Shown here: piece after piece, positions 1,222-10,516 of the stretch | Position numbering within the stretch: the stretch's first letter is position 1 | Layout of the letters: each line of letters starts with the position of its first letter | Assembly (NCBI GenBank): GCA_945869465.1 | Contig: CAMBPB010000001.1 | Coordinates: forward strand, 62,001 to 126,000 | Source: Prosthecobacter debontii | Lineage (GTDB): Bacteria; Verrucomicrobiota; Verrucomicrobiia; Verrucomicrobiales; Akkermansiaceae | Direction: 5' to 3' | Length of the DNA stretch: 64,000 nucleotides | Made by a program: the position numbers and the translations under genes | Notes under the pieces: generated by a model | The model's input: only the letters and a program-made list of their open reading frames with translations | Told to the model about the DNA's origin: nothing | The model's database searches: none

Positions 1222-4200
1222 TCAGGGAGTCGCAACCAGCACACTGAGTCGGGCGAACAGCGCGCCATTCGCAGCAAGTGACCGGGGGATGTGGACATGC
1301 ACGAAGTCGATGTTGGGGCCGGCACCATTGTCGTCCTGGGTCACCACAACACCGGGGGTTCCGGCGGAATGGGTCCATATCCCGGCAAGGTTGGTGCTCC
1401 ATTCGACTCTGATAGTCGTTGCGCTATCGGTATTCGCTAGATCGGAGCGCCGATAGGTGAAAACCAGATAGTCCTCGTTGCCCGGGTTGCCATCCAGATT
1501 TGCGGATAGCAGTGCCACCTTCGGCATAAGGTTGGCGTCCGGTTGGTTGGAAGGATTGCCGCCAATGACGTATTCGACCGCATTGCTGATCGTATCCCCA
1601 TCGGAATCTGTTCCGGGGTCGGCTGTAAGATTGTATCCTGCCATCCACTGATTGTAGGCTGGCACAGCGACCGTGTCGGGCACTTCGATCAAGACGCTGA
1701 GTCGGGCGAAAAGCATGCCGTTCGGCGATAGCGAACGAGGCAGATATACCTTCACGCGGTCCACTCCGGGAGCGAACGCATCATTTTCTTCAACGACCAC
1801 CACACCCGGGCTGCCTGCCGCATTCGTCCAAGGGCCGACGAAGTCAGTGTCCCATTCGACCTTGATTGTCGTCAGTGGATCGTTATTCGCACGGTCCGTG
1901 CGACGATAGGTGAAGAGGAGGTATGCCGAGCTGCCATTGATCCCATCCGGATCGGCAATGACCGGGGCGGAGACTGGAAGCAGATTGGCGTTGTTCTGGT
2001 TCGCAGGGTTGCCACCGATCACATATTCGACGGCGTTGCTGATCGAATCGTGGTCTGAATCATCTCCCGGTTCGGCCACAAGGCTATACTCAGCGAGCCA
2101 TTCAGTGAAGCCATTGCCAGCCACGTCGTTGATCGTGATGTTTAATGCCGCATCATCCGTAGCATTAAAACTGTCCACGACACGCACAACAAAGTCATTT
2201 GCTCCGACATTGCCGTTGCCGGGCGTGCCTGAGAGAGTGCCATCGCTTGCCACCAGCAGCCAGGCGGGTCCGCTGACTTTCATATAGGTGATCGAGTCAC
2301 CGGCGTCCATGTCGCTGGCGGAACCGGCGAGCGAGCCGCTATAGGAAATGTCTTCGTCGGCACCGGCACCGGCGATGGGATCGAGGGTGAAGGTCGGCGC
2401 GTCGTTGGCGTTGGTCACCGTGATGTTCAGCGCCGCCTCGTCGGTGGTGCTTGTGCCATCGGTGGCGCGCACAACAAAGTCATTTGCTCCGACGTCGCTG
2501 TTGCCGGGCGTGCCTGAGAGAGTGCCATCGCTTGCCACCAGCAGCCAGGCGGGTCCGCTGACTTTCATATAGGTGATCGAGTCACCGGCGTCCATGTCGC
2601 TGGCGGAACTGGCGAGCGAGCCGCTATAGGAAATGTCTTCGTCGGCACCGACACCGGCGATGGGATCGAGGGTGAAGGCCGGGGCGTCGTTCACGTTGGT
2701 CACCGCAATGTTCAGCGCCGCCTCGTCGGTGGCACTTGAGCCATCGGTGACGCGAATGAAGAAGGCGTTTGCTCCGACGTCGCTGTTGCCGGGCGTGCCG
2801 GAGAGCGAGCCATCGCTTGCCACCAGCAGCCAGGCGGGTCCGCTGACTTTCATATAGGTGATCGAGTCACCGGCGTCCATGTCGCTGGCGGAACTGGCGA
2901 GCGAGCCGCTATAGGAAATGTCTTCGTCGGCACCGGCACCGGCGATGGGATCGAGGGTGAAGGTCGGCGCGTCGTTGGCGTTGGTCACCGCGATGTTCAG
3001 CGCCGCCTCGTCGGTGGCGTTTGAGCCATCGGTCACGCCGATGACGAAGGTGTTTGCTCCGACGTCGCTGTTGCCGGGCGTGCCTGAGAGAGTGCCATCG
3101 CTTGCCACCAGCAGCCAGGCCGGGCCGCTGACTTTCGAGTAGGTGATAGAGTCACCGGCATCGATGTCGCTGGCGGAACCGGCGAGAGAACCGCTGTAGG
3201 CAACGTCTTCGTCGGCACCGGCACCGGCGATGGGATCGATGGTGAAGGCCGGAGCGTCGTTGGCGTTGGTCACCGCGATGTTCAGCGCGGCTTCGTCAGT
3301 GGCGCTTGTGCCATCGGTGACGCGGACGACGAAGGCGTTGGCTCCGACATTGCCGTTGCCGGGCGTGCCGGAAAGTGTGCCGTCGCTTGCCACTGCTAGC
3401 CAGGCCGGACCACTGACTTTCGAGTAGGTGAACGAGTCACCGGCATCGATGTCGCTGGCGGAACCGGAGAGAGAACCGCTGTAGGCCACGTCTTCGTCGG
3501 CACCGACACCGGCGATGGGATCGAGGGTGAAGGCCGGGGCGTCGTTGGCGTTGGTCACCGCGATGTTCAGCGCGGCTTCGTCAGTGGCGCTTGTGCCATC
3601 GGTGGCGCGGACGACGAAGGCATTGGCTCCGACATGGCTGTTGCCGGGTGTGCCGGAGAGCGTGCCGTCGCTGGCCACCAGCAGCCAGGCGGGTCCGCTG
3701 ACTTTCGAGTAGGTGAACGAGTCACCGGCATCGATGTCGCTGGCGGAACCGGCGAGAGAGCTGCTGTAGGCCACGTCTTGGTCGGCACCGGCACCGGCGA
3801 TCGGATCGAGGGTGAAGGCCGGCGCGTCGTTCACGTTGGTCACGGCAATGTTCAGCGCCGCCTCGTCGGTGACATTGGAACCGTCCGTAATGCGAACAAC
3901 AAAGTCATTTGCTCCGACGTCGCCGTTGCCGGGTGTGCCGGAGAGCGAGCCATCGCTTGCCACCAGCAGCCAGGCGGGGCCGCTGACTTTCATATAGGTG
4001 AGTGTGTCACCGGCGTCCATGTCGCTGGCGGAACTGGCGAGAGAGCCGCCATAGGAAATGTCTTCGTCGGCACCGGCACCGGCCATGGGATCGGCGGTGA
4101 AGGCCGGGGCGTCGTTCACGTTGGTCACAGCAATGTTCAACGCGGCCTCGTCCGTGTCACTTGAGCCATCGGTGACGCGAATGACGAAGGAGTTGGACCC

Positions 4201-7200
4201 GACATCGCTGTTGCCGGGTGTGCCGGAGAGAGTGCCATCGCTTGCCACCACCAGCCAGGCCGGGCCGCTGACCTTCGAGTAGATGAACGAGTCACCGGCA
4301 TCGATATCACCGGCGGAACCGGCGAGTGTGCCACTGTAGGCCGCCTCTTCGGTTGCTCCTCCTCCTGCAATGGGGTCAAGGGTGAAGGCCGGCGCATCAT
4401 TGATCGAACTGACTGTGATTGAAACAGTCACAGCATCGGATTGAACCACTCCATCGCTCGCGCGGTAGGTGAACGAATCGTCGCCATGATAATTCAATGA
4501 CGGGGTGTAGGTAAACCCGCCGTTCGAATTTAAATTCAACGTGCCATCGCTTGGACCGACATCCAGGATTGCAGTCAACGGCAGGGCTTCCGGATCGGAA
4601 TCGTTGACGAGCACACCTGACGCCGCCACGATCAGCGGAACATCCTCATTCGCGGAATAGGCATCCGCAGTCACCACAGGCGCTTGGTTTGGAACATAGA
4701 CTGCGGTCAGTGTATGATCGCCATCCATGGTCATGGTGATGCTCGGGTTCGTGCTGTGATCAGCACCATTTTTCAACCACTTCTGGAAATTGGTGGCGCC
4801 GATCACCGCCGGCACGGACATGTTGATCACCGTTCCTGCGAGATACAGGCGGGAGAATTCGGAGGCTCCATTTCCACTTTCTCTAACATCCGAAGGAGTT
4901 AAGGTCACATTCACTCCGTTGTCGGGCGAAGAGTTGACCGTGAGGGCCCGCGTGACTTGCGGGATCACCCGGACGTTGTCGAGCAACAAATCCACACTGC
5001 TCGTATTGGGCGCGGATTTGTCCTCAAACATCAATGTCGTTGTGGCGCTGTTCGCGATGAAGGAATAACTCCTTGAAGCCCAGACCGTGACTCCGGTGCC
5101 ATTTCCCGTCAGCGTTTCTTGAGGTGAGAGCAGAATCGAGGCACCGGTAACGGTTGTCTTGATCTTTTGCGTGCTGGCTGTACCGGAAATGAAGGCTTGG
5201 ATACCCCGATCAAACGTCAACAAATAAGGGAACCCCGGTCTCGTGGCGAACGTTTGCGAGAAGATCGCATTGGCGACCTTGTTGCTCGCATTAAAGGCGG
5301 TCAGTTTGGCAGTCAGAGTGAGCAGGGGATCGGTCGCCGGCCGGCTGGTTGTGGTGGTTTCGATTTGATAGTTGCCGGAAACCGTCCAGAAATTGGGCAC
5401 CAGACCTGTGATTTGTTCGAAACTGCCATTTTTCAGAACCCCGTTCACACTGATCGCAATGGTTGCAGGAGCGGAAGGGGAATTGCCGTCCTCGGTCACG
5501 AAGGAGAAACTGTCAGCCCCCTCATAGGTCTGGTCCGGCGTGTAGGTCAGATTCGGAGCAATTCCGGTGAGCGTTCCATGCAAGGGCTGCACCGTCACGG
5601 CGAATGTCAAGGTATCCTCATCCACATCGCTTCCGGTGAGGATGATCGATCGGGTCGTGCCACGCGTCATCGAAATGGACTGGGCATTCGCAACAGGCGC
5701 ATCGAATACTGTAGCCACGTCGATCGTGACGGTAGCCGGAGCCGAGGGACCCGAGCCATCGTTCACCGTAAAAGTAAAACTGTCCGACCCGTTTGTATTC
5801 GGGGTCGGTGTATAAGTCAGGTTCGGGGGCGAACCCGAAAGCACTCCATAACTGGGAGAATCAGCCACAACGAACGTCAAGTCATCTCCTTCCGGATCGG
5901 TTCCGGCCAAGGTGATTCCCACTGCAACATCTTCGTTGGTTGCGACCAATTGCGCCACCGCTGAAGGACCGTCGTTCACCGAATTGACGGTAATCGTCAC
6001 AGTCGCAAGGCTTGAGTTCACCGAGCCGTTGGTGGCGTGGTAGGTGAAAGAGTCCGTGCCATTGAAGTCCGGCGTCGGGTCGTAAGTGAAGCTGCCGTCG
6101 GCGTTTAGGCTGAAGGATCCCTGCGTAGGCGGCACATCGATCACCGCGGTGATCGGCAGCGAGTTGGGATCCGTATCGTTTGCCAGGATTCCGGGAGCCG
6201 CTACTGCCAACGGGGTATCCTCATCGGTGAAGTAGGAATCCGCCGTGGCCCAAGGCGTGTTATCGACAACATAAACGGCATTCATTGTATAACTCCCGTC
6301 TATCGTCACGGTGGTCGAAAGGCTGGTGCTGACATCGCTTCCGTTTTTCTGCCATTTCTCAAAAACATTGGCGCCGGAGGCAGCGGTAGCGGTGAGCGTC
6401 ACCGATGCTCCGTCAGCATAAATGCGGTTGAACGCGGTCACGCCATTCGCGCTTCCTCCAAGATCCGCCGGAGCCATGGCGACAGCCAGGCCGCTTACCT
6501 GACTCGAGGTTACGGCAAGTGTGTGAGTCACGTCAATTTCGGAAATCCTCACGCCATCAAGAAGCAAGTCGCAGGTGTGCGACACGCCGGAAGACAGGGT
6601 CGAAGAGTTGTCCGCGAATCTGAGGGTGGTGGTCGCACTGTCGGCAATGAAGGTATAACTCTTCGCCGTCCAGTGCGCGGGTCCGGCAGCCGCCGTCAGT
6701 TCCTCAGGCCGGGATAACAGGGTCCCGGTGCCGAGCACGGTTACCTGCAGCCTCTGCTTTTGATTCGCAATGCCGACGGTGCCTATGTCGAAGTCGAGGC
6801 TGTAGGCTCGCCCGGGCACGGTCGAAATAACCTGAGAAACAATCCCGGTAAAGCTGTTGCCACCACTGTTGAAAAACGCGATCCGGTCGCCATCTGTCGA
6901 GCTTATGCCCGGCACGCTGTCCTTGATATAGCCAACGACACTACCCGTCACTGTCCAATCCGCCATCGTGGTGACTTGGCCGGAAACGATCGCGCCCGAC
7001 TCGAAGCTCCCGTTGGTCAGGGCATTGATGGGTGCCGCAGTGACGCTGATTGAAACGGTGGCCACGTTGGAATCCACCGCCCCGTCATTGGCTTTGTAGG
7101 TGAAGGAATCGGATCCAACGTATCCCGCAGTGGGCGTGTAGGTGAAACTTCCGTTTGAATTCAAGGTCAGGCTGCCATGCGCCGGACTAGAGACCCCGAT

Positions 7201-10035
7201 CGCCGTGAGCGGATCCGAATCGACATCCGTATCGTTGGAAAGAACACCGGTGGCAGCCACCGTCATGGGAATGCTCTCAATCGTCGAATACGAGTCAGCT
7301 ACCGCGACCGGTGCGGAGTTGGGGGTGAACACCGCCACCCGGACGCGATCAAGCAACAGATCGGAATTGGTGGCCTCACCCACAGGCAAGGCCGCTGAAC
7401 CGTCCGTGAACGTAAGAGTCGTGGTCGATCCGGTCGCCACAAAGGTATGATTCTTCGGTGGCCAATTCGCCGCTCCCGCAGTTGTCATCGTCAGGTTCTC
7501 TTCAGCCGAAAAACCGGCAGCAGTTACCAACAGACGTTGCTTCTTACCAACGGTTCCTACAATGCCAACATCGAAATCCAATTCATACGTCACTCCCGGG
7601 GTGGTTGCGAAGGTCTGTGAAATAGAGCCTCCGAAGACATTGCCAGCTGCGTTGAACAGCGTGAGCCGGTCTCCGTCGGGGGCGGTATAGATCAGCGGTG
7701 CGACCGAGTCTTCCACATAACCAAGCGGGTTGCCGGTGAGCGTCCAATCCGCGAGAGCGGTGACACGGCCGGAAACGATGGCACCCAGTTCGAAGCTGCC
7801 GTTGAGAAGCGCGACCGGAGCCGCGGCACTCACCGTGAGCGAAACGGTGGCCACATTGGAATCCAAGACTCCGTCGTTGGCTCGATACGTGAACGAATCC
7901 GCCCCCGTGAAACCACTGCCCGGCGTATAGGTAAATCCACCATCGGTATTGAGAGTCAGAATCCCGTTTGACGGGCCCGCAACCAACACCGCTGTAAACG
8001 AATTGAGATCAGGTTCCGTGTCGTTGCCAAGCACGCCCGAGGCAGGTACCACGAGTGGGACGTTTGCCGTGGTCGCGTAGCCGTCATCCGCCGCATCCGG
8101 GGCATCGTTAACCGGGGAGACAGTCAGCAAAACTGTCACCACGTTCGAATCGAGAATGCTATCATTGGCTTTGTAGGTGAATGAATCATTTCCATCGAAG
8201 TTTGCATCCGGAATGTAGGTGAAGCCACCATTGGCACTCAAGGTGAGGGAACCGCTCGATGGTCCCGCGACCAATATCGCAGTCAACGAACCAATTTCGG
8301 CATCGGTGTCGTTGCCCAGCACGCCTGATGCCGCCACTACCAGCGGAGTGTCCTCGGTGGCCGTGTAGCCGTCCGCAACCGCAACCGGCGCGTTGTTACC
8401 AATGCTGCCGGCGGTCAATCGCACGTCGTCGAGCAGAAGATCGGAGCTGGAGGCGCTATAACCCACAAGCATTGCTCCTGACCCATCCGTAAACGTGAGG
8501 GTAGTCGTTGCCGCGGACGCCACGAAGATGTGATGCTTCGGCGTCCAATTCGCCGCACCAGCAGTCACCATTTCCACATAATCCGCTGCGGAGAGGCCGG
8601 CCGCCGTCACCCGCAGTCGCTGGTCCCCGCCAACAGTTCCTACAATCCCGACTTTATAATCCAGTTCATACGTCATCCCCGGGGTGGTTGCAAACGTCTG
8701 TGAAATGGAGCCTCCGAAAACGTTGCCGCCAGCATTGAAAAGCGCGAGTCGTTGTTCGTCAGGCGCGGTATAAATCAAGTTTTCCACATAGCCGATCGGA
8801 CTGCCCGTCACCGTCCAGTTCGCGAGAGTGGTAACCTGGCCGGAAACGATGGCACCCAGTTCGAAGCTGCCGTTGAGAAGAGCGACCGAGGCTGCCGCGT
8901 TCACCGCTATCGAGACGGTGGCCACATTGGAATTCGCGAGGCCGTCGTTGGCTCGGTAGGTGAACGAATCCGCCCCGACATAGGCGCTGCCAGGCGTGTA
9001 GGTAAATCCTCCATTGGAATTCAATGTGAGGGTGCCATTCGACGGCCCAGTCACCAACGCCGCGGTCAATGAACCGGGTTCGACATCCGTATCGTTGCCC
9101 AGGACACCCGATGCCGCTACCACAAGTGGAGTGCCCTGGGTGGCCGAGTAACTGTCCGCGACCGCCACCGGCGCGTCGTTGACATTGGTCACCGTCAGCG
9201 CAACGGTCGCCACATTCGAATCAACAATCCCATCGTTTGCCTTGTAGGTGAACGAATCACTCCCATGGAAATTGGCACCCGGCGTGTAGGTCAATCCACC
9301 ATTGCCGCTCAAAGTCAGGCTGCCGTTTGCCGGACCCGCCACCAAAATCGCGGTTAACGAATCAAGATCGGCATCCGTGTCATTGCCCAACACACCCGAT
9401 GCCGCCACCACCACCAGCGGAGTGTCCTCGGTGGCGGAGTAGCTGTCAGCGACCGCCACCGGCGCGTCGTTGCCGGCGACACTTGCGGCCACACGCACGT
9501 GATCCAGCAAAAGGTCGGAACCTGTGGCGCTGTCACCCAGATTGAGAGTCCCTGAACCATCCGTGAATGTCAGCGTGGTCGTTGCCTCAGTCGCGACAAA
9601 AGTGCGATGCTTCGGAGCCCACAAGGCCGGATATCCTGTCGCATTCAAATAGTCCTCCGCGGACAGGCCCGCCGCCGTCACCAGCAGGCGCTGCTTCCGG
9701 CCCGAAGTTCCTATGATGCCGACTTGATAGTCCAGGTCATAAGTCACCCCCGGGGTGGTGGCGAAAGTCTGTGAGATCGTGCCTCCGAAAACATTGCCGG
9801 CAGCATTGAAAAGCGCGAGCCGATTAAAATCCGGGGCGGTATAGTTCACATCCTCCACATAGCCAATCGGATTGCCCGTCACCGTCCAGTTGTTTATCGC
9901 GGTGAGTTGGCCGCTGACAATCGAACCGGTTTCGAAGCTACCGTTGACAACAAGCTCTGCGTGGCAAACGGTAGCGCCATATTTCGCAAGCATTAACATT
10001 CCTGCGAGATTTAGAATTCTGCTGATCTTTTTCAT
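1222..10035 (-). CDS. giant secreted multidomain repeat protein, putative adhesin (2,937 aa)
   Basis: I place the start at 10035 because MKKISRILNLAGMLMLAKYG is a clear signal peptide, cut near residue 26. The open frame continues upstream to 10377 without coding character. Module order: NGSFE-type beta-sandwich modules resembling DUF642/choice-of-anchor C (five copies, each ending in LLLD.VR), alternating with Ig/cadherin-like Big_9 modules (NDAPVAVADSY...DTP), and two InlB-like B repeats ending in AVYV. Eight near-identical 95-residue dystroglycan/cadherin-type repeats follow at residues ~1879-2638. The protein ends in two copies of a ~145-residue module containing DSDxDxxSNAxEYVxGGNP, a Ca-binding-like Asp motif. 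There is no PEP-CTERM, LPXTG or membrane anchor. Likely a calcium-stabilised surface or matrix protein; its place inside the polysaccharide locus suggests a matrix role. Ligand unknown. Confidence 0.85.
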   Translation of the reverse strand: MKKISRILNLAGMLMLAKYGATVCHAELVVNGSFETGSIVSGQLTAINNWTVTGNPIGYVEDVNYTAPDFNRLALFNAAGNVFGGTISQTFATTPGVTYDLDYQVGIIGTSGRKQRLLVTAAGLSAEDYLNATGYPALWAPKHRTFVATEATTTLTFTDGSGTLNLGDSATGSDLLLDHVRVAASVAGNDAPVAVADSYSATEDTPLVVVAASGVLGNDTDADLDSLTAILVAGPANGSLTLSGNGGLTYTPGANFHGSDSFTYKANDGIVDSNVATVALTVTNVNDAPVAVADSYSATQGTPLVVAASGVLGNDTDVEPGSLTAALVTGPSNGTLTLNSNGGFTYTPGSAYVGADSFTYRANDGLANSNVATVSIAVNAAASVALLNGSFELGAIVSGQVTTLANWTVTGSPIGYVENLIYTAPDEQRLALFNAGGNVFGGSISQTFATTPGMTYELDYKVGIVGTVGGDQRLRVTAAGLSAADYVEMVTAGAANWTPKHHIFVASAATTTLTFTDGSGAMLVGYSASSSDLLLDDVRLTAGSIGNNAPVAVADGYTATEDTPLVVAASGVLGNDTDAEIGSLTAILVAGPSSGSLTLSANGGFTYIPDANFDGNDSFTYKANDSILDSNVVTVLLTVSPVNDAPDAADDGYATTANVPLVVPASGVLGNDTEPDLNSFTAVLVAGPSNGILTLNTDGGFTYTPGSGFTGADSFTYRANDGVLDSNVATVSLTVSAAAPVALLNGSFELGAIVSGRVTALADWTLTGNPLGYVEDSVAPLIYTAPDGDRLTLFNAAGNVFGGSISQTFATTPGVTYELDFDVGIVGTVGKKQRLLVTAAGFSAEENLTMTTAGAANWPPKNHTFVATGSTTTLTFTDGSAALPVGEATNSDLLLDRVRVAVFTPNSAPVAVADSYSTIESIPMTVAATGVLSNDTDVDSDPLTAIGVSSPAHGSLTLNSNGSFTYTPTAGYVGSDSFTYKANDGAVDSNVATVSISVTAAPINALTNGSFESGAIVSGQVTTMADWTVTGSVVGYIKDSVPGISSTDGDRIAFFNSGGNSFTGIVSQVISTVPGRAYSLDFDIGTVGIANQKQRLQVTVLGTGTLLSRPEELTAAAGPAHWTAKSYTFIADSATTTLRFADNSSTLSSGVSHTCDLLLDGVRISEIDVTHTLAVTSSQVSGLAVAMAPADLGGSANGVTAFNRIYADGASVTLTATAASGANVFEKWQKNGSDVSTSLSTTVTIDGSYTMNAVYVVDNTPWATADSYFTDEDTPLAVAAPGILANDTDPNSLPITAVIDVPPTQGSFSLNADGSFTYDPTPDFNGTDSFTYHATNGSVNSSLATVTITVNSVNDGPSAVAQLVATNEDVAVGITLAGTDPEGDDLTFVVADSPSYGVLSGSPPNLTYTPTPNTNGSDSFTFTVNDGSGPSAPATVTIDVATVFDAPVANAQSISMTRGTTRSIILTGSDVDEDTLTFAVTVQPLHGTLTGIAPNLTYTPDQTYEGADSFSFVTEDGNSPSAPATIAISVNGVLKNGSFEQITGLVPNFWTVSGNYQIETTTTSRPATDPLLTLTAKLTAFNASNKVANAIFSQTFATRPGFPYLLTFDRGIQAFISGTASTQKIKTTVTGASILLSPQETLTGNGTGVTVWASRSYSFIANSATTTLMFEDKSAPNTSSVDLLLDNVRVIPQVTRALTVNSSPDNGVNVTLTPSDVRESGNGASEFSRLYLAGTVINMSVPAVIGATNFQKWLKNGADHSTNPSITMTMDGDHTLTAVYVPNQAPVVTADAYSANEDVPLIVAASGVLVNDSDPEALPLTAILDVGPSDGTLNLNSNGGFTYTPSLNYHGDDSFTYRASDGVVQSDAVTVSITVSSINDAPAFTLDPIAGGGATEEAAYSGTLAGSAGDIDAGDSFIYSKVSGPAWLVVASDGTLSGTPGNSDVGSNSFVIRVTDGSSDTDEAALNIAVTNVNDAPAFTADPMAGAGADEDISYGGSLASSASDMDAGDTLTYMKVSGPAWLLVASDGSLSGTPGNGDVGANDFVVRITDGSNVTDEAALNIAVTNVNDAPAFTLDPIAGAGADQDVAYSSSLAGSASDIDAGDSFTYSKVSGPAWLLVASDGTLSGTPGNSHVGANAFVVRATDGTSATDEAALNIAVTNANDAPAFTLDPIAGVGADEDVAYSGSLSGSASDIDAGDSFTYSKVSGPAWLAVASDGTLSGTPGNGNVGANAFVVRVTDGTSATDEAALNIAVTNANDAPAFTIDPIAGAGADEDVAYSGSLAGSASDIDAGDSITYSKVSGPAWLLVASDGTLSGTPGNSDVGANTFVIGVTDGSNATDEAALNIAVTNANDAPTFTLDPIAGAGADEDISYSGSLASSASDMDAGDSITYMKVSGPAWLLVASDGSLSGTPGNSDVGANAFFIRVTDGSSATDEAALNIAVTNVNDAPAFTLDPIAGVGADEDISYSGSLASSASDMDAGDSITYMKVSGPAWLLVASDGTLSGTPGNSDVGANDFVVRATDGTSTTDEAALNITVTNANDAPTFTLDPIAGAGADEDISYSGSLAGSASDMDAGDSITYMKVSGPAWLLVASDGTLSGTPGNGNVGANDFVVRVVDSFNATDDAALNITINDVAGNGFTEWLAEYSLVAEPGDDSDHDSISNAVEYVIGGNPANQNNANLLPVSAPVIADPDGINGSSAYLLFTYRRTDRANNDPLTTIKVEWDTDFVGPWTNAAGSPGVVVVEENDAFAPGVDRVKVYLPRSLSPNGMLFARLSVLIEVPDTVAVPAYNQWMAGYNLTADPGTDSDGDTISNAVEYVIGGNPSNQPDANLMPKVALLSANLDGNPGNEDYLVFTYRRSDLANTDSATTIRVEWSTNLAGIWTHSAGTPGVVVTQDDNGAGPNIDFVHVHIPRSLAANGALFARLSVLVATP
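2122..4401 (-). repeat. eight tandem 285-bp coding repeats
   Basis: Eight head-to-tail units of exactly 285 bp (95 codons) within the adhesin gene. Each encodes a cadherin-like (CADG/He_PIG) domain that starts NDAP.FT.DPIAG and contains KVSGPAWL, SDGTLSGTPGN and DEAALNI. The bases are almost the same from unit to unit; for example the block around SGPAWLLVASDG recurs at 285-bp spacing. That points to recent duplication or ongoing homogenisation by recombination. The outermost units are the most divergent. Confidence 0.93.
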
Positions 10036-10516
10036 AATTTCAGGGGGAAAGGGGGGCAAACACATTGTATCGAACTGGCGGATCAGTTTCCGCCCGGCCG
10101 TGGAAGCAATCGGGAAGTTGTATCCATCTCGAGACGGACTAGTCGAATTTATTGCCGAATACGCATCACACGTTAAGATTCCTCCCATGGATGAATCATC
10201 GACGAGGTCCCTTCCACGCTCACACGGAGTGAGAACGTATATGGAGAAATCCGCAGAATCCTGCTGTTTCGAAATTCTGTTATCGGGAGGGAAATTCATT
10301 GTCGGGGGAAACTGAACCACGACGCCTCGAAATTTTCCGGGACAGGTGCGCAGCTCAATCAACACAACCCGTATCATAAACCGATCCTCGGGGAATTACG
10401 CGATCACGTAAGCGTGAACCTTCTCTTGCTCAAGAATGTCAACCGGAACCCCGCTTATATCGTTTTACGAACATACAAAACAAGGTCGATTGCCTGCCCT
10501 TGCAGAAAGAGATGGG
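10036..10516. other. intergenic region upstream of the adhesin gene
   Basis: 481 bases between the DUF5672 gene and the adhesin signal peptide. No ORF here looks coding. It holds the dyad at 10396-10411 and a C-rich tract (on the transcribed strand) just before the adhesin ATG. The adhesin therefore probably has its own promoter here, unlike the tightly packed genes upstream. I see no convincing -35/-10 pair. Confidence 0.5.
10396..10411. promoter_or_regulatory. operator-like dyad TTACG-N6-CGTAA (site 1)
   Basis: A perfect 5-bp inverted repeat with a 6-bp spacer, the geometry of CRP/FNR-family operators. It lies in a 19-base sequence (10392-10410) that recurs with one mismatch at 36092-36110. 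It is about 360 bases upstream of the adhesin start. The regulator is unknown and the function is inferred only from symmetry, recurrence and position. Confidence 0.4.

Follow-up and report, generated by a model that had tools for sequence, protein, structure and literature searches.

A giant adhesin gene of Prosthecobacter debontii, located in the window (the whole 64,000-nucleotide stretch of DNA that was analysed), ends in two tandem copies of a module with the hallmarks of a C-terminal localisation domain, and of a sort new to Verrucomicrobiota. The observations behind this reading are that the module is conserved, is modelled as one compact fold, lies at the C-terminus, follows unrelated bodies that appear to be mostly exported, replaces PEP-CTERM, moves between genes as a tail, and is restricted to the phylum within the sampled sets. 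From these observations we infer that the module acts as a signal read by a dedicated partner. A probability of roughly 0.55 is given to the view that it represents a folded localisation domain, placed at the C-terminus and specific to Verrucomicrobiota, with a putative partner that recognises it.

The giant adhesin and its two C-terminal modules

The features of the adhesin gene, all on the minus strand, are as follows.

1222..10377, minus strand, giant adhesin ORF, 3051 codons counted from the first ATG
9958..10035, minus strand, probable Sec signal peptide MKKISRILNLAGMLMLAKYGATVCHA, called with a simple heuristic from an inferred start codon
1678..2112, minus strand, C-terminal module copy 1, 145 aa, the internal tandem copy
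2026..2061, minus strand, EF-hand-type loop of copy 1, DSDHDSISNAVE, with positions 1, 3, 5 and 12 acidic in 92/92 aligned modules
1687..1710, minus strand, last strand of copy 1, FARLSVLI, the strand call being borrowed from the model of copy 2
1225..1659, minus strand, C-terminal module copy 2, 145 aa, directly before the stop codon
1573..1608, minus strand, EF-hand-type loop of copy 2, DSDGDTISNAVE, from the alignment and the structure model
1234..1257, minus strand, last strand of copy 2, FARLSVLV, with F135 and R137 conserved in more than 90% of aligned copies
1222..1224, minus strand, adhesin stop codon

Translation is more likely to start at codon 115 (window position 10035, an inferred start codon), giving a protein of 2937 amino acids. 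The body of the adhesin, as matched with Pfam and NCBIfam, is composed of tandem-95/Big_9 and He_PIG domains and five DUF642/choice-of-anchor C stretches, with the choice-of-anchor C model TIGR04362 reaching 221.5 bits over these five stretches in NCBIfam, where its cut-off is 120. The NCBIfam name choice-of-anchor C refers to the varying C-terminal anchors of such proteins, and a body of this type counts in favour of the tail being a localisation domain. Preceding the modules, a 285-bp unit is repeated in 7.7 tandem copies with 88% matches (window 2198-4402), corresponding to 95-aa He_PIG repeats, and this array is a likely site of copy-number change. The gene itself is held within a polysaccharide-biosynthesis cluster (window 1-24235), where its neighbours include a sugar nucleotidyltransferase (NTP transferase), a hexapeptide transferase, a DUF5672 protein, an ABC-2 exporter pair, and GT2 and GT1 glycosyltransferases.

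An earlier note on this DNA described the adhesin as ending in two tandem modules of ~145 residues, and as being devoid of PEP-CTERM, LPXTG and T9SS-type anchors. Both statements are borne out. The two modules can be placed by coordinate, are 57% identical across 145 aligned residues, and have a common framework consisting of W5, the loop region D(S)D-x-D-x-I-S-N-A-V-E-Y-V-I-G-G-N-P, FTYRR, and FARLSVL. In the last 299 amino acids of the adhesin, no Pfam family is matched at E<=0.1 and the sole NCBIfam match is far under its cut-off; thus, signals of the PEP-CTERM, Por_Secre_tail or LPXTG type are not seen there. Comparison of module 1 with module 2 gives a dS of 1.8, which is near saturation, and a dN of 0.34 (dN/dS ~0.19), indicating that both copies are old and have been kept by selection. 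Chance is also ruled out by the presence of this framework in dozens of further proteins.

Predicted fold and the calcium-type loop

An AlphaFold2 model based on 92 aligned copies predicts one compact domain (pLDDT 88.5, pTM 0.80). The predicted layout starts with a helix bearing a conserved W, followed by an EF-hand-type loop and a second helix, and then a six-strand Ig/FnIII-like sandwich, the last strand of which forms the very end of the protein. The loop follows the pattern DxDxDxxxNxxE, and the last strand F-x-R-L/V. A Foldseek search of the PDB returned nothing at E<=0.001 and weak Ig-like matches only, and the VIA-align comparison placed cytokine-receptor FnIII domains first with a Z of 7.3, a middling level that can mean a mere common arrangement. 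By sequence, no related chain was found in the PDB beyond calmodulin-like loops; chain 1k85, of chitinase A1, is matched weakly at the profile level. The predicted beta-sandwich topology resembles that of FnIII/Ig-like domains, with the difference that the module possesses an extra helix-loop-helix and matches no sequence family. When the 92 copies were compared with Pfam and NCBIfam, no model covered the beta part.

The Asp-rich motif had been likened in the earlier note to dockerin and thrombospondin-3 repeats, and that likeness holds in part. The motif is of the calcium-loop kind, being EF-hand-type with positions 1, 3, 5, 9 and 12, but it is not a true TSP3 or dockerin repeat. As in dockerin type I and other EF-hand proteins, one canonical calcium loop is followed by a helix at a C-terminal site; dockerin type I, however, has two F-hand repeats where the module has a single loop, and no Pfam dockerin match was found in the window copies or in the 92 copies. 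The short Asp-rich DxDxDG motif is likewise reminiscent of TSP3_bac (PF18884), which differs in forming arrays whereas the module carries one loop, and the TSP3_bac profile matches 2 of the 92 copies, neither of them a window copy.

The module copies of one group of genomes (g2, called Akkermansia-like here from family kinship and Amuc_1099 matches) are informative in this respect. Their tails end sulfatases, GH18 proteins and BNR enzymes, and terminate in RRFLRLKVTRE. The calcium-ligand positions 1, 3, 5 and 12 are acidic in every one of the 92 aligned copies that do not belong to the Akkermansia set and in only one of the nine that do, with 8/9 being devoid of three of the four ligands. W5, N26, L91, W95, F135 and R137 are nevertheless kept in 9/9, and a copy without the ligands is modelled with the same fold (pLDDT 94.3). 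The C-terminal position is likewise retained. Since these copies keep the sandwich and the last strand, the conserved core of the module lies in those elements, and not in calcium binding. The lone Akkermansia-like module with all calcium ligands is L232 (G082:C9:17094-17501), whose eight sisters have lost them.

Distribution of the module

A search of the P. debontii genome (3.59 Mb, 161 contigs) with an 11-row profile finds the module at 36 places at E<=0.001, and the second adhesin module used alone already retrieves clear relatives. With a 20-row profile, the module is present in 168 of 289 Verrucomicrobiota genomes; the best 14 places per genome were scored in this search, and the per-genome counts are lower bounds. 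The true counts in genomes of the same family are large, as up to 259 unscored candidate places were seen in a first look. By profile search, then, the module is far from being confined to one protein, which was the other outcome that the earlier note had named as refuting its idea. Among named genomes, 79 loci were obtained, the full-length ones being labelled Akkermansiaceae, Verrucomicrobia(ceae), Haloferula, Luteolibacter or PVC group.

Outside the phylum, no full-length module was found in 296 Bacteroidota genomes, three of which gave partial matches in the EF-loop region, and no match was found among 72,556 plasmids or in the viral contigs searched. Relative to the Bacteroidota and plasmid sets, the module is thus phylum-specific as far as sampled, Planctomycetota lying outside the sample. 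No description of the module was found in the open-access literature, subscription papers being outside that search.

Position at the C-terminus

When all loci are pooled and distinct full-length copies in frames with a stop are counted, 140 of 150 copies end no more than 5 residues from the stop codon, with 6 more at 6-15 residues and 4 farther away. Uniform placement would put 3.6 of the 150 within 5 residues of the stop. Thus, 146/150 copies reach to 15 residues or fewer from the stop, which is not the random placement that the earlier note had raised as the alternative to a sorting tag. In the P. debontii genome, nearly all copies end a few residues from the stop, or fall short of it by a few unaligned residues.

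For the four non-terminal copies, two are the first members of tandem pairs, namely those of the window adhesin and of contig C39. In a third case, L240, Akkermansia relatives of the frame stop at the normal place, and the fourth, L164, is a truly internal copy. Two P. debontii loci stand out. In L020 (G000:C39:4904-5341), a second tandem tail follows the first and is frameshifted past its calcium loop, meaning that the window adhesin is not alone in having tandem tails. In L038 (G000:C110:7728-8033), an internal module is followed by more than 500 further residues that appear phytase-like by eye.

Carrier proteins and movement of tails

When the bodies of the 41 complete carriers are clustered, 26 unrelated groups result, with Pfam assignments that include PATR, cadherin, Big, fucosidase-like, sulfatase, GH18 and sialidase-like BNR bodies. 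Signal-peptide-like N-termini were called with a crude heuristic in 44 of 59 carriers versus 47 of 119 control ORFs, and judging from these N-termini the carriers are probably mostly exported.

Two pairs of genes in the P. debontii genome show movement of the tail. In the first, contigs C4 and C54 (L034, L035) and contigs C75 and C103 (L031, L030) break inside one near-identical tail that is present in two genes. The DNA identity of this tail is 97.7-100% (98.8% in the 5' part, 97.7% in the 3' part), and the shared identity includes the stop codon and ~90 bases of 3' flank. The bodies of these genes have no detectable DNA similarity near the tail, yet they are not wholly unrelated: the two proteins are of the PATR type and 39% identical where they align. 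The second pair, on C70, has a tail with 99% DNA identity on proteins that are 32% identical. Near-identical tails behind diverged bodies imply that tails have been copied between genes, and the presence of four contig ends inside such tails means that further identical copies may be collapsed in the assembly.

The PATR proteins also provide a view of the module in relation to another C-terminal signal. The P. debontii genome encodes 24 PATR-repeat ORFs, 18 of which end in the module (3 of these cut by a contig end within it); the remainder consist of one with the beta part only, one with PEP-CTERM, two that are bare, and two that run off contigs. Over 116 residues, the PATR body with PEP-CTERM shares 41% identity with a PATR body that carries the module, and their similarity extends precisely up to the start of IPEPASALLGGLGMLTLLRRRR in the one and of the module in the other. 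The module therefore replaces PEP-CTERM at the same junction of homologous bodies, a type of argument that was used for GlyGly-CTERM (PMC3237569). The genome as a whole encodes one exosortase (G000:C57) and ~6 PEP-CTERM proteins versus the 36 module places. The PATR protein with the beta part alone (L224, G000:C101; YQLQHS..W..GFYRIRVSP), lacking the calcium loop, indicates that the module superfamily may extend beyond what the profile detects.

Candidate export and anchoring systems

The closest parallel is with the CTDs of the T9SS (types A and B), which are folded C-terminal beta domains found on many unrelated Sec-exported proteins of Bacteroidota (PMC12618676, PMC5445135). The module is similarly a folded beta domain, with which unrelated Sec-exported proteins (signal peptides by heuristic) of one phylum terminate, but carries an EF-hand-type loop ahead of the sandwich. 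The 92 copies match no T9SS CTD family in Pfam or NCBIfam at E<=0.001, and the T9SS translocon SprA/Sov was found in 0 of 289 Verrucomicrobiota genomes, that of P. debontii included. With SprA absent and a Flavobacteriaceae positive control at 2846 bits, the module was rejected as a T9SS substrate.

A link to the pilus-like Amuc_1098-1102 system was likewise rejected. The Amuc_1099 family (NF042425) has an EF-hand-type loop similar to that of the module, and its matches to module tails reach ~20 bits against a cut-off of 50 and span ~35 residues, covering the calcium loop only. In addition, presence of Amuc_1099 has no association with presence of the module. The P. debontii genome does possess the Amuc_1100/Amuc_1099/secretin-like gene order of the Akkermansia pilus-like system (L171, G000:C31:23760-24737), and its Amuc_1099 homologue carries the EF-hand-type loop NRDPDADGFNNREEF.

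In the case of exosortase, an association exists but is one-sided. Exosortase was detected in 97 of 97 genomes with at least five modules versus 60 of 121 module-less genomes, a comparison that is uncorrected for ancestry, and within g2 there are more module copies where exosortase is present (p 0.012, likewise uncorrected for ancestry). Exosortase-bearing families without the module exist, as do module genomes with no detected exosortase, such as G113 with two copies. Because of the module-less exosortase families and the uncorrected ancestry, exosortase is a lead and not proof. Surfaces rich in exopolysaccharide may instead lie behind the association, in keeping with the location of the adhesin gene among polysaccharide genes.

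The module shares with PEP-CTERM/exosortase targets (and with GlyGly-CTERM and MYXO-CTERM) its place behind homologous bodies and its many targets per genome. It differs from PEP-CTERM in being a folded, soluble domain of 125-165 residues that lacks the signature motif, TM helix and basic cluster, and the six PEP-CTERM proteins of the P. debontii genome look quite different from module tails. No TM helix is found in the last 150 amino acids of the adhesin, where the best 19-residue hydropathy mean is 1.2, so the tail cannot be an ordinary exosortase substrate.

The tests of SprA, Amuc_1099 and exosortase thus identified no partner gene. The earlier note had suggested a tag that could mark a phylum-specific export or anchoring route, with co-occurrence with a particular secretion gene as a check. 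Here, the conserved, C-terminal and phylum-specific character of the tag is upheld for the sampled sets, together with its interchange with PEP-CTERM, whereas none of these three systems could be tied to it as the particular route. No clear co-occurrence was found, with SprA absent, Amuc_1099 unassociated, and the exosortase link one-sided and confounded by ancestry.

Alternative explanations

The main rival to the reading of the module as a localisation signal is that it is an accessory domain, FnIII-like with a structural calcium loop, that binds matrix or glycans (exopolysaccharide or LPS) and so holds exported enzymes and adhesins close to the cell, and is C-terminal by architectural habit with no export machine involved. 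This is a serious proposition, if a rather unlikely one, and is consistent with the Ig/FnIII-like fold and its Z 7.3 neighbours, the weak 1k85 profile match, and the position of the adhesin gene in a polysaccharide cluster. The presence of exosortase in all 97 module-rich genomes points in the same direction, as exosortase is the enzyme of the exopolysaccharide-associated PEP-CTERM system (PMC1569441). Selection on both tandem copies also favours binding, and counts against the signal reading, since purifying selection on the internal adhesin copy would be needless for a pure C-terminal address tag. Also counted against a signal are the search for a partner gene, which found none, the few internal copies (L164, L038), a fold typical of binding modules, the two bare PATR proteins, and the crudeness of the signal-peptide heuristic. 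The selected internal copy and the FnIII-like fold thus leave room for a matrix-binding domain. Such binding modules, however, are usually also found at N-terminal or internal positions, whereas 146/150 copies here are at the stop, and the carriers have very different substrates.

Improbable by comparison is a role as a cap or propeptide at the C-terminus, one that would stabilise long repetitive proteins in the periplasm, assist their folding or hold them inactive, and that may be cleaved. The strict C-terminal position and the many carriers that are long beta-repeat proteins of 1000-4700 amino acids would suit such a function, but the module is also found on ordinary globular enzymes (sulfatases, GH18), and the same PATR bodies occur bare or with PEP-CTERM. 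That the module is a mere bacterial TSP3/EF-hand calcium repeat, common and with no special meaning, is very improbable, in spite of the EF-hand-like loop, the TSP3_bac matches in 2/92 copies, and the calmodulin loops that are its best PDB sequence matches. The loop accounts for just 12 of ~130 conserved positions, conservation is as strong in the beta part and the last strand, and the Akkermansia copies, which keep all but the calcium ligands, contradict this explanation. Even less probable is a disguised exosortase substrate, or PEP-CTERM variant. The shared junction with PEP-CTERM and the exosortase of P. debontii and of every module-rich genome could be read in this way, but there is no PEP-like motif, TM helix or basic tail, and module genomes with no detected exosortase (G113) are at odds with it.

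Implications

If the module is a localisation domain, the carriers would be made with a Sec signal peptide and delivered to the periplasm, where, or at the outer membrane, the module would be recognised by its partner. The partner would then export the carrier, or fix it to the cell surface or matrix. Such use of the module would follow the logic of T9SS C-terminal domains, by analogy and outside all known families. A more speculative extension, possible but doubtful, is that an undescribed outer-membrane export or anchoring machine, a functional counterpart of the T9SS, delivers a sizeable share of the exported proteins, among them the enzymes with which Akkermansia degrades mucin.

The placement of proteins on or beyond the verrucomicrobial outer membrane is poorly known, and the module gives a handle on it. 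Since neither Pfam nor NCBIfam has a model for the beta part, carriers are now annotated without the module. Its reach extends from 36 places in one genome to gut bacteria of the Akkermansia-like group, with their sulfatases, sialidase-like enzymes and GH18 enzymes, and recognition of the module lets exported proteins be predicted and offers a bait for the partner.
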